Below, one piece after another: positions 18,072 through 23,340 of a DNA stretch of 64,000 nucleotides. Position 1 is the stretch's first letter. Each line of letters begins with the position of its first letter. Location of the stretch: positions 124,001 through 188,000 of the forward strand of contig NZ_BNBZ01000007.1 in the NCBI RefSeq assembly GCF_014656215.1, written 5' to 3'. Under the pieces are notes generated by a model. The model worked only from the letters and a program-made list of their open reading frames with translations. It was not told the origin of the DNA and did not search any database. The stretch is from Streptomyces zaomyceticus (GTDB lineage Bacteria > Actinomycetota > Actinomycetes > Streptomycetales > Streptomycetaceae). A program made the translations under genes and the position numbers.

Positions 18072-20255
18072 TCAGTCGCGTTTCGCTGCCTCGGTGTACG
18101 GACCGAGGCAGCGGGGCTTTCCGGACGTGATCCGCCAGAGGGTCAGCCCTTGCAGGACGGTCGTCGAGTTCTGGCTGGCCCTGGAGTGGTAGGACCTCGC
18201 CACCCCCTGGTACGTCTTGTGCTCCTCCATGAACGCGTACGACATCGCCGCGCCCGGGTACTTCGCGTTCCTCTCGACGGCGGTACGCAGCGCCTGCACC
18301 GTCCAGTACACGGCGTCGTACGACTCCACCGCGAACCGGTCGACCGGGTCCGTGACCGCGAGCCGCCAGCGCCTGCGGTACGCGGCCGCGAACTCCTTCG
18401 CGGCCGGGACCGTATCGGGGTCGGTGTAGCCCGCCCCGAAGTACCAGCCCTCGGCCGCCGCACCCGCCACGGTGAGGAACTCCGGCTGGAGCGCGGGCTC
18501 GACGCTTCCGCGCGGGCCCTCGTATCCCTGCCGCAGCAGCGCCTTGGCGCACAGGGCGGCCCGGCGCGGCGACTTCCCCAGGTACATCACGCCCGTCGGG
18601 GAGGTGGCGAGCGCGGCCCGGACCGCCGGGCCGAAGTCCTCGCTGTCCGCCGCGACCCGGTGCACGGTGACCGTGCCGCCGGCAGGCGGCGAGTCCTTCA
18701 GATTGCGGGCGGCGAGCCAGCTGTAGGTGCCGGCCGCCCGGTCCTCGATGACGGCGGTGCGGCCCAGACCGTGCTCGGTCAGGTAGCGGCCGAAGGGCGC
18801 CGACATCACATCGGGGTAGGGCCGCACCTCGAAGTAGGTGCGGGCCGGCGTCTGGCCCCGGATCACCCCGTCCGCGACCGACGGCACCACGCCGAGCACC
18901 GGCACCCTGGCATCGACGAGCGCGTTCGCCGCCCCGACGGCCGTCTCGGTGGTCGTCGGGCCGAGGACGGCGACCAGGGCCGGGTCCCGGAGGAGGGTGC
19001 GGGCCCCGGCGGCGGCCCGCTCGGGGGCTCCCCCGTCGTCCGTCACCTTGAGGATCAGGTCGAAGGGCCGGTCCGCGCGGGCGTTGAAGGTCTCCGCGGC
19101 GAGGCGCAGTCCGCGTTCCTGGGCGCGCCCGTCCGCCTTGCCGGGGCCGCTGAGATCGGTGAGGACACCGAGCGTGTACGCCGCTTTGGGCGCCCCCGTA
19201 CCGCCGCCGGTGCCGCCGCCCGGTCCGGTGCCTTGGTCGCGGCCGAGCAGCCAGGCGGTGAGGCCGCCCGTGCCCGCGACGGCCCCGGCCGCTCCGAGCA
19301 CCAGAAGACGGCGCCGCGAAGTCCCCTGCGTCTCGCCGGGGTTGAGGACGGTCGGATCGGCGACAGGCAGGTCCAGGACCCGCGAGGAGCGCTGGGCGAT
19401 CAGGGCGGGCAGACCGGTCGGCAGCCAGTCGCCCGCCGCCGGGCCCTCGTGCGGGCCGAGGGCGTCCCGTACCTCGACGGTGCCCGGCCGGTCGGCGGCG
19501 TCCTTGGCGAGACAGGCCTCGACCAGGGGCAGCAGCGGCCCGGGCAGGCCGTCGAGGTCGGGCTCCTCGTGGACGGTGCGGTAGACGACCGAGGCCACCC
19601 CGCCCGTGCCGAAGGGGCGGCGTCCGGTCAGCGCGTACGCGAGGACGCAGCCGAGCGAGAAGACGTCGCTGGCCGGTCCGACCTCCCCGGCGCCCGCGAC
19701 CCGGGCCTGTTCGGGGGCGAGGAAGCCGGGGGTGCCGATCATGGCGTCGGTGGCCGTGAGCGCGGTCGCCCCGGCGGTCCTGGCGATGCCGAAGTCGATC
19801 AGCCGGGGCCCGTCGAGGGCGAGCAGCACGTTCCCGGGCTTGACGTCCCGGTGGACGAGCCCGGCCGTGTGCATGTCGGCGAGGGCGTCGGCGAGTCGCG
19901 CGCCGAGCGCCCGCACGGTCGGCTCGGGCAGGGCGCCGTGCAGGGCGACGGCCTCGGCGAGCGAGGGCCCGGGCACGTACTCGGTCGCGAGCCACGGCTC
20001 GCGGGCCTCCGGATCGGCGCCGAGGACGCGGACGACCCAGCGGCCGGTGATCCTCTCGGCGGCCCGCGCCTCGCGGCGGAACCGCTCCCGGAAGCCGGGG
20101 TCGGTGGCGTGCTCGGCCCGGATGAGCTTGAGCGCGGCGAGCGCACCGCCGGCGGAACGGGCGAGGTAGACCACGCCCATGCCGCCGGCGCCGAGCCGCC
20201 CGAGCAGCCGGTAGCCGGCGATCGAGGAGGGATCGGCCTTCTTGAGTGGCTGCAC
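18072..20255 (-). CDS. Receptor Ser/Thr kinase fused to extracellular substrate-binding domain, copy 2
   Basis: This is a 727-residue protein. Residues 14-270 are a PknB-like kinase with the glycine loop GRLGAGGMGVVYLA, Lys43, catalytic Asp137 in HRDVKPGN and DFG at 154-156. A basic SRRRLLVLG motif (313-321) and one hydrophobic segment (317-337) follow, then a Gly/Thr linker. Residues 360-727 are a periplasmic-binding-protein type I domain of the branched-chain amino-acid receptor class, starting LGVLTDLSGPG. The GTG start at 20255 is two bases after the previous stop. It is a tandem paralogue of the next entry. The ligand is unknown. The kinase would sense a small molecule outside and phosphorylate cytoplasmic targets. 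Confidence 0.9.
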   Translation of the reverse strand: MQPLKKADPSSIAGYRLLGRLGAGGMGVVYLARSAGGALAALKLIRAEHATDPGFRERFRREARAAERITGRWVVRVLGADPEAREPWLATEYVPGPSLAEAVALHGALPEPTVRALGARLADALADMHTAGLVHRDVKPGNVLLALDGPRLIDFGIARTAGATALTATDAMIGTPGFLAPEQARVAGAGEVGPASDVFSLGCVLAYALTGRRPFGTGGVASVVYRTVHEEPDLDGLPGPLLPLVEACLAKDAADRPGTVEVRDALGPHEGPAAGDWLPTGLPALIAQRSSRVLDLPVADPTVLNPGETQGTSRRRLLVLGAAGAVAGTGGLTAWLLGRDQGTGPGGGTGGGTGAPKAAYTLGVLTDLSGPGKADGRAQERGLRLAAETFNARADRPFDLILKVTDDGGAPERAAAGARTLLRDPALVAVLGPTTTETAVGAANALVDARVPVLGVVPSVADGVIRGQTPARTYFEVRPYPDVMSAPFGRYLTEHGLGRTAVIEDRAAGTYSWLAARNLKDSPPAGGTVTVHRVAADSEDFGPAVRAALATSPTGVMYLGKSPRRAALCAKALLRQGYEGPRGSVEPALQPEFLTVAGAAAEGWYFGAGYTDPDTVPAAKEFAAAYRRRWRLAVTDPVDRFAVESYDAVYWTVQALRTAVERNAKYPGAAMSYAFMEEHKTYQGVARSYHSRASQNSTTVLQGLTLWRITSGKPRCLGPYTEAAKRD
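18085..18112. terminator. Hairpin inside the 3' end of the kinase gene, likely korAB terminator
   Basis: An 11-bp perfect stem, GCTGCCTCGGT with a six-base loop, lies 28 bases after the korB stop but within the coding sequence of the convergent kinase gene (the codons before its stop). The 15-base gap between the two genes has no terminator of its own. Confidence 0.6.
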
Positions 20256-20257
20256 GC

Positions 20258-22513
20258 TCAGGCCTTCTTGGGCTTCTTGGGCTTGTTGGGTTCCGCGGGC
20301 GCGGGACCCAGGAACTTGTAGGCCCCGTTCTGCACGCCGTAGAGGAAGGTGCCCATACCTCTGAGCTCGCCGTTGTCGGCGAACGAGTAACCGCCCATGG
20401 CCCCGGTGTACTCCTGCTTGCGCAGCGCCTCCCACAGGCCCTTGCGGGTGAGCGGGCCCTTGGCGGCGTTCGAGGAGAGCCAGGACGTGACCAGGTTGAC
20501 CACGTCGAAGGACTCGCCGGTGTAGAAGGCGGGGGTGGTGCCGTAGCGCTTGCGGTGGGCGTCGAGGAAGTCCTGGGCGGCCTTGCGGTCGGCCGCCTTC
20601 TGCTTGGTGTCGGCGGCCCGCTGGACGGGGTCGACGACGGGCGCGCAGACGTACCAGCCCTCGGCGGCGGTCCCGGCCTCCTTCAGGAATTCCGACCCGA
20701 AGACGTGCTGGCCGGCGAACCGGGGCCCGGTGAAGCCGAGTTGCGTCAGGGCGCGGGCGGCGAGCACGGCCGTGGAGCGGAGACCGCAGTGGACGTACGC
20801 GTCGATGCCGGCGTCGACCATCTCGCCGATGACCCGGCGGTAGTCGGTGACCCCGGCCGGGACCACTCGGAAGTGCGGCTCGATGCCGGCGTACCGGAAC
20901 CCGAAGCGGGCGCCGGCGGTGCACTGCCAGCCGTACTGGTCGTCGGAGCGTTCCTGGAGGACTCCCGGGCGCCGGATCTGCGGCAGCAGCGTGGCGGACC
21001 AGGCGAGGTAGGTGCCCGCCAGGATGTGGTTCGGGACGGCGCGGAGGACGGTCGTGTTCCGCGAGGAGCCGGCGTCTTCGCGCAGGGTGAAGAGGTTGTA
21101 GCCCGCCGAGGTGGTGAGGAGCGGCATGCCGGCCTCCTCGAAGGCGGGCAGCGCGGTGACGCCGGTGGCGTCGGAGGTGGGGCCGAGGGTGGCGATCACG
21201 GTGGGGTCGGAGGTGAGCCGACGGGCGGCGGCGAGGGCGCCGGCGACCTCCCCGCGGTCGTCGGAGACCTTGAGTTCGAGGGTGAAGGGCTTGCCCTTGT
21301 GCGCGGCGTTGAACAGCTCGACGGCGAGCCGGGCACCGCGCTCCTGGGCCCGGCCGATCTCCCGGGCGGGCCCGGAGAGGTCGGCGAGGACGCCGATGGC
21401 CCAGGTGTTCCGGGGCTTCGGCGCGGGGTGCTTCGCGTCGGTGTCGTCCCGCCCGGAGTCCCACAGGGCGTACCCGCCGCCGCCCGCCGCGAGCACCGCG
21501 GCACCGGCGCCGAGCAGCAGGAAGCCGCGCCTGCTGGGCCGGGCCGGGGCGGCGGCGTCCGTGCCGTGCGCGGTCGGGTCGATGTCGGGTAGGGCCAGCA
21601 TGGCCGTCGAGCGGGTGGCGATGGTGGTGACGACGGGTGCGGGCAGCCAGTCGGAGGGGGCGCCGGGGGTGTCCTCGGTGAGCCGGGCGGCGATCTCCTC
21701 GGCGGTGGGGCGTGCGGCCGGTTCCTTGGCGAGGCACTGCCGTACGAGGTCGAGCAGCGGCTCCGGTACGCCGGCGAGGTCGGGCTCGTCGTGCACGGTC
21801 CGGTAGAGGAGGGCGTCCACGGCGCCCCTCCCGAACGGCGGGCGGCCGGTGGTCGCGAAGGCGAGCAGACAGCCGAGGGCGAAGACGTCTGAGGCGGGGC
21901 CGATCTCGGCGGCGCGGGCCTCGGCCTGTTCGGGGGCGAGGAAGCCGGGCGTGCCGACGATCATGTCGGCCGAGGTCAGCCCGGTCTCCCCGGTGGCACG
22001 GGCGATGCCGAAGTCGATCAGCCGGGGGCCGTCGACGGCGAGCAGGATGTTGCCGGGCTTCACGTCGCGGTGGACGATCCCGGCCGCGTGGACGGCGGCG
22101 AGCGCGCGGGCGACGGCGCCGCCGAGGATCCGTACGCTCCGCTCGGGCAGCGGACCGTGGGCGAGAACGGCCTCGCCGAGGGACGGGCCCGGCACGAAGG
22201 CGGTGGCCATCCACGGCTCGGGGGCGTCGGGATCGGCGCCGGTCACGGGGACGGCCCAGGGGCTGACGACCCGGCGGGCGGCCTCGACCTCGCGGCGGAA
22301 GCGGGCCCGGAAGTCGGCCTGGTCGGCCTGGTCGGCGTGGGTGACCTTGACGGCGGCGAGCTCGCCGCTGTCGGTGCGGCCGAGGTAGACGACGCCCATG
22401 CCGCCGGCGCCGAGGCGGCCCAGGAGGCGGTAGCCGGCGATCGACGAGGGGTCGGAGGGCAGGAGCGCCTGGAGGGCGCCGGGCTGGGGGCCGGGCTGGG
22501 CCATCGGGCTCAT
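20258..22513 (-). CDS. Receptor Ser/Thr kinase fused to extracellular substrate-binding domain, copy 1
   Basis: This is a 751-residue protein. The kinase domain is at about 28-285 (glycine loop GRLGAGGMGVVYLG, Lys56, HRDVKPGN with Asp150, DFG at 167-169, GTPGFLAPEQ). A classical twin-arginine sequence, SRRGFLLLG (327-335), leads into a hydrophobic segment to about 350. A type I periplasmic-binding domain spans 371-735, starting IGVLADLSGPA. A Lys/Pro-rich tail ends the protein. The ATG at 22513 overlaps the lipoprotein stop as ATGA. The membrane segment's resemblance to a Tat signal is unusual for a receptor kinase. Confidence 0.9.
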   Translation of the reverse strand: MSPMAQPGPQPGALQALLPSDPSSIAGYRLLGRLGAGGMGVVYLGRTDSGELAAVKVTHADQADQADFRARFRREVEAARRVVSPWAVPVTGADPDAPEPWMATAFVPGPSLGEAVLAHGPLPERSVRILGGAVARALAAVHAAGIVHRDVKPGNILLAVDGPRLIDFGIARATGETGLTSADMIVGTPGFLAPEQAEARAAEIGPASDVFALGCLLAFATTGRPPFGRGAVDALLYRTVHDEPDLAGVPEPLLDLVRQCLAKEPAARPTAEEIAARLTEDTPGAPSDWLPAPVVTTIATRSTAMLALPDIDPTAHGTDAAAPARPSRRGFLLLGAGAAVLAAGGGGYALWDSGRDDTDAKHPAPKPRNTWAIGVLADLSGPAREIGRAQERGARLAVELFNAAHKGKPFTLELKVSDDRGEVAGALAAARRLTSDPTVIATLGPTSDATGVTALPAFEEAGMPLLTTSAGYNLFTLREDAGSSRNTTVLRAVPNHILAGTYLAWSATLLPQIRRPGVLQERSDDQYGWQCTAGARFGFRYAGIEPHFRVVPAGVTDYRRVIGEMVDAGIDAYVHCGLRSTAVLAARALTQLGFTGPRFAGQHVFGSEFLKEAGTAAEGWYVCAPVVDPVQRAADTKQKAADRKAAQDFLDAHRKRYGTTPAFYTGESFDVVNLVTSWLSSNAAKGPLTRKGLWEALRKQEYTGAMGGYSFADNGELRGMGTFLYGVQNGAYKFLGPAPAEPNKPKKPKKA

Positions 22514-23340
22514 GACTGGGCTCCCCACTGCTTCTTGACGCGGTCCTGCATGATGACGTTGGCCCGGACCTGGGCGTCGGTGATGTTCGCCTCGGTGTAG
22601 CCGGGGGCTCCCTTGATGACGGTGGCGAAGCTGACCTGCCCGATGCGGGTCTGGAACCAGGTGTAGAACTGCGGTTTCTCGAAGGCGTCGTTGAGGTACG
22701 AGCCGCGCTCGACGATGAGGTCGTCCGTGGTGGAGTGTTCGTCGTAAGGGGGGCTGACCGACGTGAGGCCGCTGATGCGTTCGCCCTCGCTCAGCCGCTG
22801 GTCGGTGCAGCGCAGCGCCTCCTCCAGGGTCTCGGCCATCTCCCAGCCGGCGTCGGACCCGGTGCGGTGGATGGTGACGGTGGCGGCGACGCGCACGACT
22901 CCCTTGCCTCCCGCGGCCGGGATCTCGCTGTAGGAGGTGACGCTGTAGAGGACGGAGCCCGGCAGGCTGCCCGCTTCCCAGGTGCATTGCTCGTCGAGGA
23001 CCGGCCAGGAGCCGGGGGCGCTGAGGAACGGGCTGCGCTCGACGTACTCGGGCCCCCAGGCGTCCGGCCCCGCCACGACGGCGAGTGCCAGCCGTTTCGC
23101 CTCGGCCGCGGTGCGCGGGGCCTTCTTCGGGTCCAGGGTGACGACCCGTCCGCTCGCTGTCGGGGACGGGGTCGGGGTCCCGGACGCGCTGGTGCTCGGT
23201 GTGCTTCGGGGCGGTTTCCCGTCGCCCCCGCCGTCTCCCGGCGAACAGGCCGCCAGGAGTGCCATGCCCGCCGCCACCACGGCACCGGTGCGCAGCGCTC
23301 TTCCGTACGTGTCCCTCACGATTCCCCCACGGTCGCTCAC
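22510..23340 (-). CDS. Putative secreted lipoprotein, unknown function
   Basis: This protein has 276 residues from the GTG at 23340 (269 from a GTG at 23319). A signal peptide ends in the lipobox LLAAC near residue 32, so it should be lipid-anchored outside the membrane. A Ser/Thr/Pro linker follows (about 42-63), then a soluble domain with three scattered cysteines (CTW, RCTD) and no recognised family. It is the first gene of the receptor-kinase cluster, with translation coupled to the first kinase. It may help present or sense the same ligand; this is inference from context only. Confidence 0.8.
   Translation of the reverse strand: MSDRGGIVRDTYGRALRTGAVVAAGMALLAACSPGDGGGDGKPPRSTPSTSASGTPTPSPTASGRVVTLDPKKAPRTAAEAKRLALAVVAGPDAWGPEYVERSPFLSAPGSWPVLDEQCTWEAGSLPGSVLYSVTSYSEIPAAGGKGVVRVAATVTIHRTGSDAGWEMAETLEEALRCTDQRLSEGERISGLTSVSPPYDEHSTTDDLIVERGSYLNDAFEKPQFYTWFQTRIGQVSFATVIKGAPGYTEANITDAQVRANVIMQDRVKKQWGAQS

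Follow-up and report, generated by a model that had tools for sequence, protein, structure and literature searches.

How would a solute-binding domain reach the outer face of the membrane when it forms the C-terminal part of a protein that begins with a kinase? This question is raised by two neighboring genes, here called A and B, in the window (the whole stretch of 64,000 nucleotides that was analyzed), which belongs to a Streptomyces-type genome of 8.3 Mb. The initial annotation had described them, at 18072-22513, as tandem proteins with a kinase and a binding domain, and both open reading frames are indeed there, each with a Pkinase and a Peripla_BP_6 domain that score well over the Pfam cut-offs (Table 1). 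A lies downstream of B in the same direction, with a gap of 2 nt, and together with a lipoprotein gene they are codirectional on the minus strand. In both proteins, the region between kinase and sensor consists of a low-complexity linker followed by a twin-arginine segment, PSRRGFLLLGAGAAVLAAGGGGYALW in B and TSRRRLLVLGAAGAVAGTGGLTAWLL in A, just as had been quoted for this junction.

Table 1. Positions in the window of the three genes and of their domains and signals
Feature	Positions	Strand	Details
Lipoprotein gene	22510-23319	-	269 aa from GTG 23319; alternative GTG start 23340; overlaps gene B start (ATGA)
Lipobox LAAC of lipoprotein	23245-23256	-	Sec-type signal, no RR
Gene B	20258-22513	-	751 aa; kinase / linker / RR anchor / LivJ-like sensor; ATG 22513 to TGA 20258
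Gene B kinase domain, AfsK-type	21689-22432	-	residues 28-275 (Pkinase, Pfam); catalytic K, HRDxKPxN, DFG, APE present
Gene B internal Tat-like anchor SRRGFLLLGAGAAVLAAGGGGYALW	21461-21535	-	
Gene B sensor, Peripla_BP_6 / LivJ fold	20366-21403	-	residues 371-716 (Pfam)
Gene A	18072-20255	-	727 aa; kinase / linker / RR anchor / LivJ-like sensor; GTG 20255 to TGA 18072
Gene A kinase domain, AfsK-type	19470-20213	-	residues 15-262 (Pkinase, Pfam)
Gene A internal Tat-like anchor SRRRLLVLGAAGAVAGTGGLTAWLL	19245-19319	-	
Gene A sensor, Peripla_BP_6	18180-19175	-	residues 361-692 (Pfam)

The kinase part is a complete Hanks-type domain with the catalytic lysine, HRDxKPxN, DFG and APE, and the catalytic columns K42, H134-D136, K138, N141, D153-G155 and P180-E181 are invariant across 22 diverse aligned members. 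It had earlier been described as PknB-like, but the nearest model is not PknB: for both A and B, the best NCBIfam model is AfsK. Full-length relatives of the two proteins are found in many Streptomyces genomes, mostly as tandem pairs. In a tree of the kinase domains, the fusions form a single clade (SH-aLRT 99) nested in a larger AfsK-type clade; the few further rows within the fusion clade (L047, L049, L247) belong to the same kinase family but are truncated where the fetched stretch ends. Since all 142 fusion sequences considered below belong to this one clade, they are not independent of each other.

Conservation of the arginine pair among relatives had been set as the test by which the idea of a Tat signal could fall, and the pair proved to be invariant, being kept in 142/142 distinct fusion ORFs (orthologous or paralogous); two Streptomyces plasmid-borne members also carry the motif. 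The anchor consensus is (G/S/T)RR(R/G)(F/L)L. When the sequences are lined up on the motif, G, S or T occupies position -1 in 124 of 142 fusions, the consensus Phe position has F in 77 of them and L in a further 44, and L follows at the next position in 138. In the alignment of the 22 members, R315 and L318 never vary and R314 is conserved to at least 90%, in the midst of an otherwise poorly conserved linker. A conserved (S/T)RRxFL-type motif, as expected of a Tat substrate, is hence found ahead of the hydrophobic segment, and its arginine pair lies at residue 328 in B and 314 in A, not in the N-terminal location in which Tat substrates are expected to carry it. A TATFIND-like pattern, which is our own re-implementation and not the published program and was checked on QcrA only, matches 140/142 fusions compared with 30/120 other membrane Ser/Thr kinases, which served as controls and stem from a contig scan that was keyed on kinase motifs and for this reason yielded mostly kinases other than the fusions; the two fusions that are missed fail only because their x position is Leu. 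A basic residue within 10 aa past the anchor ("Sec avoidance") is present in 126/142 fusions versus 74/120 controls, and a lysine close to the anchor in 13/142 versus 44/120. Fisher and rank tests of fusions against controls give very small p-values, which are not to be taken literally for such related sequences.

The segment behind the arginines differs from ordinary anchors as well. Glycine makes up 20% of the fusion anchors compared with 10% in kinases without the motif, and valine plus isoleucine 8% compared with 25%. On a re-implemented Hessa/von Heijne scale, checked on QcrA only, the fusion anchors have a median predicted insertion energy of -0.2 kcal/mol (deciles -0.93 to 0.78), whereas the median of control kinases without the motif is -1.9 kcal/mol; the anchors of the window, taken as segments of 19-23 residues, have values of -0.31 (B) and -0.46 (A). 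For the QcrA of this genome, the scale gave TM1 and TM2, which are Sec helices, values of -1.0 and -1.35 and the Tat-dependent TM3 a value of +0.81, in agreement with published insertion energies of Streptomyces Rieske proteins (PMC5449189). Tat h-regions are known to be less hydrophobic and richer in glycine than Sec signals (PMC7317946). Because of its weak hydrophobicity and high glycine content, the fusion anchor thus resembles a Tat h-region, yet its weakness falls short of that of proven internal Tat helices, whose insertion energies range from +0.2 to +1.8 (PMC5449189). The mid-protein junction, which had been likened to a Tat signal peptide, therefore does have the correct Tat-type context, and as far as sequence can tell, the Tat-type nature of the anchor is well supported. 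Arginine-rich flanks as a chance source of the motif were considered and rejected in view of its register, its invariance and the hydrophobicity of the segment.

Among the relatives of A and B, the type of anchor varies with the type of outer domain. Within the AfsK-type clade, a Tat-like anchor is found in 10/12 kinases whose C-terminus exceeds 350 aa, compared with 2/31 with a smaller one, and all 8 of the scanned kinases with a large C-terminus carry PQQ propellers. Small outer domains thus mostly come with ordinary anchors, and large folded sensors (PQQ propellers) mostly with Tat-like ones. AfsK-type PQQ-propeller kinases with a Tat-like internal anchor occur at L032, L057, L060, L065, L066, L103, L106, L114 and L283 (e.g., SRRRFLTGAAVGVAVLGTGGG), and the motif is absent from two AfsK-type kinases of PQQ size (L028, L031). 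As AfsK-type kinases with PQQ sensors share the anchor of A and B, it was probably inherited with the kinase lineage.

One of the two kinases that have a small C-terminus and nevertheless a Tat-like anchor is a kinase-Rieske protein (P0003 / L030; L280:2287-3894) encoded in the window's own genome, on contig C5 at about 228.8-230.4 kb. Its internal anchor, ARRRTVLGLAGTALTAGAGLTGW (with RRRTVLGLAG), precedes a Rieske [2Fe-2S] domain whose cluster ligands, CTHxGC and CPCH, are intact, and three standalone Rieske proteins of the same genome have N-terminal Tat-type lipoprotein signals with RRTVL or RRTVV. Since the Rieske cluster is inserted in the cytoplasm, an outer Rieske domain is expected to need Tat, and for this reason the kinase-Rieske protein, known here from one genome, provides the strongest argument that a kinase can carry an internal Tat signal. 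Among the plasmids searched, no kinase-Rieske protein with both parts covered was found.

With respect to the sensor of the fusions, a confident AlphaFold2 model (pLDDT 91.6) adopts the fold of LivJ, matching 4gnr with Z 40.3 and an rmsd of 2.9 for 343 residues. However, the sensor does not share with the type I (LivJ / HAAT) proteins the acidic residue that grips the amino group of the ligand (Glu226 of E. coli LBP): among 21 members, the aligned column holds R in 12, T in 3 and G in 3, with no acidic residue among those listed. Because this position is mostly Arg, canonical binding of an ordinary alpha-amino acid has probably been lost in the sensor, and a ligand of this type is not the most cautious assumption. 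When standalone relatives of the sensor were sought, the five nearest (E about 1e-78 to 1e-92) all proved to be Sec lipoproteins, with ordinary K/R signals and no RR (LNKTIVKLAIPMAVGALALTGCG). None of the standalone LivJ-like proteins encoded in the window's own genome is fused to a kinase.

The third gene of the unit had escaped the initial annotation. Its product belongs to a family with invariant cysteines, in which 21/23 homologues have a lipobox by pattern, and no family in Pfam or NCBIfam was reached with it. Its AF2 model (pLDDT 85) matches TiME (Z 14.6) and the PknH sensor (4esq; Z 13.8, rmsd 3.3 over 175 residues) in the PDB, and hence the predicted fold is like that of the M. tuberculosis PknH sensor domain and of mycobacterial TiME/LpqN. 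Unlike in PknH, however, this fold would here reside in a separate lipoprotein and not in a domain of the kinase itself, and identity is only 7-11%. A homologue of the lipoprotein is found in 23/23 loci compared, and in 22 of these it lies directly upstream of the kinases, the exception being L101, where it is about 2.4 kb upstream of the match; the flanking korAB and nmrA genes, by contrast, are common to few of the compared loci. Large plasmids of S. cadmiisoli (L284) and S. anthocyanicus (L285) also carry the cassette, the "hypothetical protein" that stands before their kinases being a homologue of the lipoprotein (41% and 38% identity, respectively). Given its position upstream in 22/23 loci and on these two Streptomyces plasmids, we consider the unit to be a three-gene cassette, within which the B-type gene precedes the A-type gene in 46/56 loci with two full fusions. 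A three-protein receptor would be the simplest reading of this arrangement, and a lipoprotein with a PknH-sensor-like predicted fold likewise suggests a kinase sensor assembled from several proteins. On one of these plasmids, a gene for a SigE-family sigma factor comes after the cassette.

Of the two explanations that had been offered for the junction, we retain and favor the one in which the sensor is moved out by Tat, because the arginine pair is invariant in the right Tat context and is followed by a Gly-rich, weak h-region. We would give a probability of roughly 0.55 to this reading, in which the RR-x-(F/L)-L segment of each kinase would act as an internal, uncleaved Tat-type signal-anchor that exports a folded sensor. 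The kinase domains of A and B would be cytoplasmic, and the LivJ-fold domains and the lipoprotein would lie outside the membrane. After synthesis, TatC, which is encoded in this genome, would bind the two arginines on the cytoplasmic side, the helix, weakly hydrophobic as it is, would be inserted N-in/C-out, and the pre-folded sensor would cross the membrane while the kinase remains inside. The paralogs A and B, together with the lipoprotein, would probably form one receptor, whose sensors capture the ligand, with the lipoprotein perhaps presenting it or modulating its capture; this may change the pairing of the kinases and alter the phosphorylation of cytoplasmic targets. That receptor Ser/Thr kinases of actinobacteria with LivJ, PQQ-propeller or Rieske sensors use internal Tat signal-anchors in this manner as an entire class, the sensors being folded in the cytoplasm (and, in the Rieske case, loaded with their cluster) and then passed outward with the kinase staying inside, we hold to be a little short of an even chance.

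The known precedents both help and limit the Tat reading. Internal Tat signals ahead of the last helix have been established experimentally for Streptomyces Rieske proteins and Sco3746 (PMC5449189), and the dual Sec-Tat proteins QcrA/Sco2149 and Sco3746 resemble A and B in having the arginine pair before a last, weakly hydrophobic helix, with the C-terminal domain outside (PMC5449189). However, these proven cases contain cofactors and earlier Sec-inserted helices, whereas A and B, whose export is predicted from sequence, have no preceding transmembrane helices, a soluble N-terminal kinase and no known cofactor. A sensor without a known cofactor would also fit with an ordinary Sec/SRP signal-anchor, in which a normal N-in/C-out helix is inserted, the arginines serve as a positive-inside flank and the sensor folds outside. 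We regard this as a live rival that deserves a substantial, if minority, share of the probability. Sec insertion of the anchor would be physically possible, since its energies fall below those of proven internal Tat helices and are mildly negative in about half of the fusions (<=0 in 84/142), and the closest standalone relatives of the sensor, as Sec lipoproteins, imply that this fold can evidently be exported unfolded. Furthermore, an RR flank close to the membrane helix is also frequent in other high-GC kinases (67/120). Such a flank would not, however, readily account for an exact invariance of RR in a Tat-specific register (Phe/Leu, then Leu), nor for the near absence of lysine, the doubling of glycine and a hydrophobicity far below that of sister kinases with ordinary anchors.

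The remaining two explanations appear far less probable. According to the other earlier proposal, a kinase was joined to a binding protein exported by Tat, such that the motif would be a relic of that protein's N-terminal signal. The anchor does resemble a whole Tat signal, and type I binding proteins exported by Tat exist (PDB 3i45 and 4ey3, named "twin-arginine translocation pathway signal"), but the nearest standalone homologues are Sec lipoproteins devoid of RR, and the same anchor is found with PQQ and Rieske sensors, its presence in AfsK-type PQQ kinases pointing to an origin in the kinase lineage; we thus consider a fusion of this kind very unlikely. Still less likely is that the weakly hydrophobic segment does not span the membrane and that the whole protein is cytoplasmic and senses an internal metabolite. 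Some AfsK-type kinases do indeed lack a membrane segment, but here about 20 charge-free residues are preceded by the conserved RR and followed in most members by a basic residue, the same operon encodes a lipoprotein partner, and the fold of the sensor is of the extracytoplasmic type.

The domain layout had been called unusual, which is true in general, but the architecture of a kinase joined to a binding protein has already been catalogued for Streptomyces. NCBI names proteins with the architecture of A and B "bifunctional serine/threonine-protein kinase/ABC transporter substrate-binding protein", and in the S. cadmiisoli and S. anthocyanicus plasmids two genes so named stand in tandem after the hypothetical protein, as in the window. 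Kinases with solute-binding domains, of the Glu/Gln type in S. coelicolor and ANF-receptor-like in Nostoc, were listed in 2005 (PMC1262709). These sources name the kinase and the binding domain but say nothing about the type of anchor, the route of export or the partner lipoprotein. The AfsK-type kinases that include PQQ-propeller receptors belong to the same kinase clade, and many of their PQQ members have the RR anchor, but A and B differ from them in their LivJ-fold sensor, the lipoprotein gene alongside and the usual tandem arrangement. The new elements are the conservation of an internal anchor of the Tat type, the association of this anchor with folded sensors, and the three-gene cassette. 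In the literature searched, in which subscription journals are thinly covered, we found no Tat-dependent or internal-RR receptor kinases. The genome-wide search for dual Sec-Tat proteins retained candidates whose preceding helices were even in number, and a manual selection then restricted it to cofactor domains (PMC5449189), which is why kinases are absent from its discussion. Tat predictors, for their part, scan N-termini, such that internal signals of this kind would be missed.

Should these anchors work via Tat, receptor kinases would be a new group of Tat clients, and a Tat signal would be shown to function behind a large folded cytoplasmic domain. It would also provide a direct cause for signalling defects of Streptomyces tat mutants. 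As a minor observation, at L273/L277 (G031) the copy of the sensor is divided between two frames, apparently representing a decayed or frameshifted fusion.
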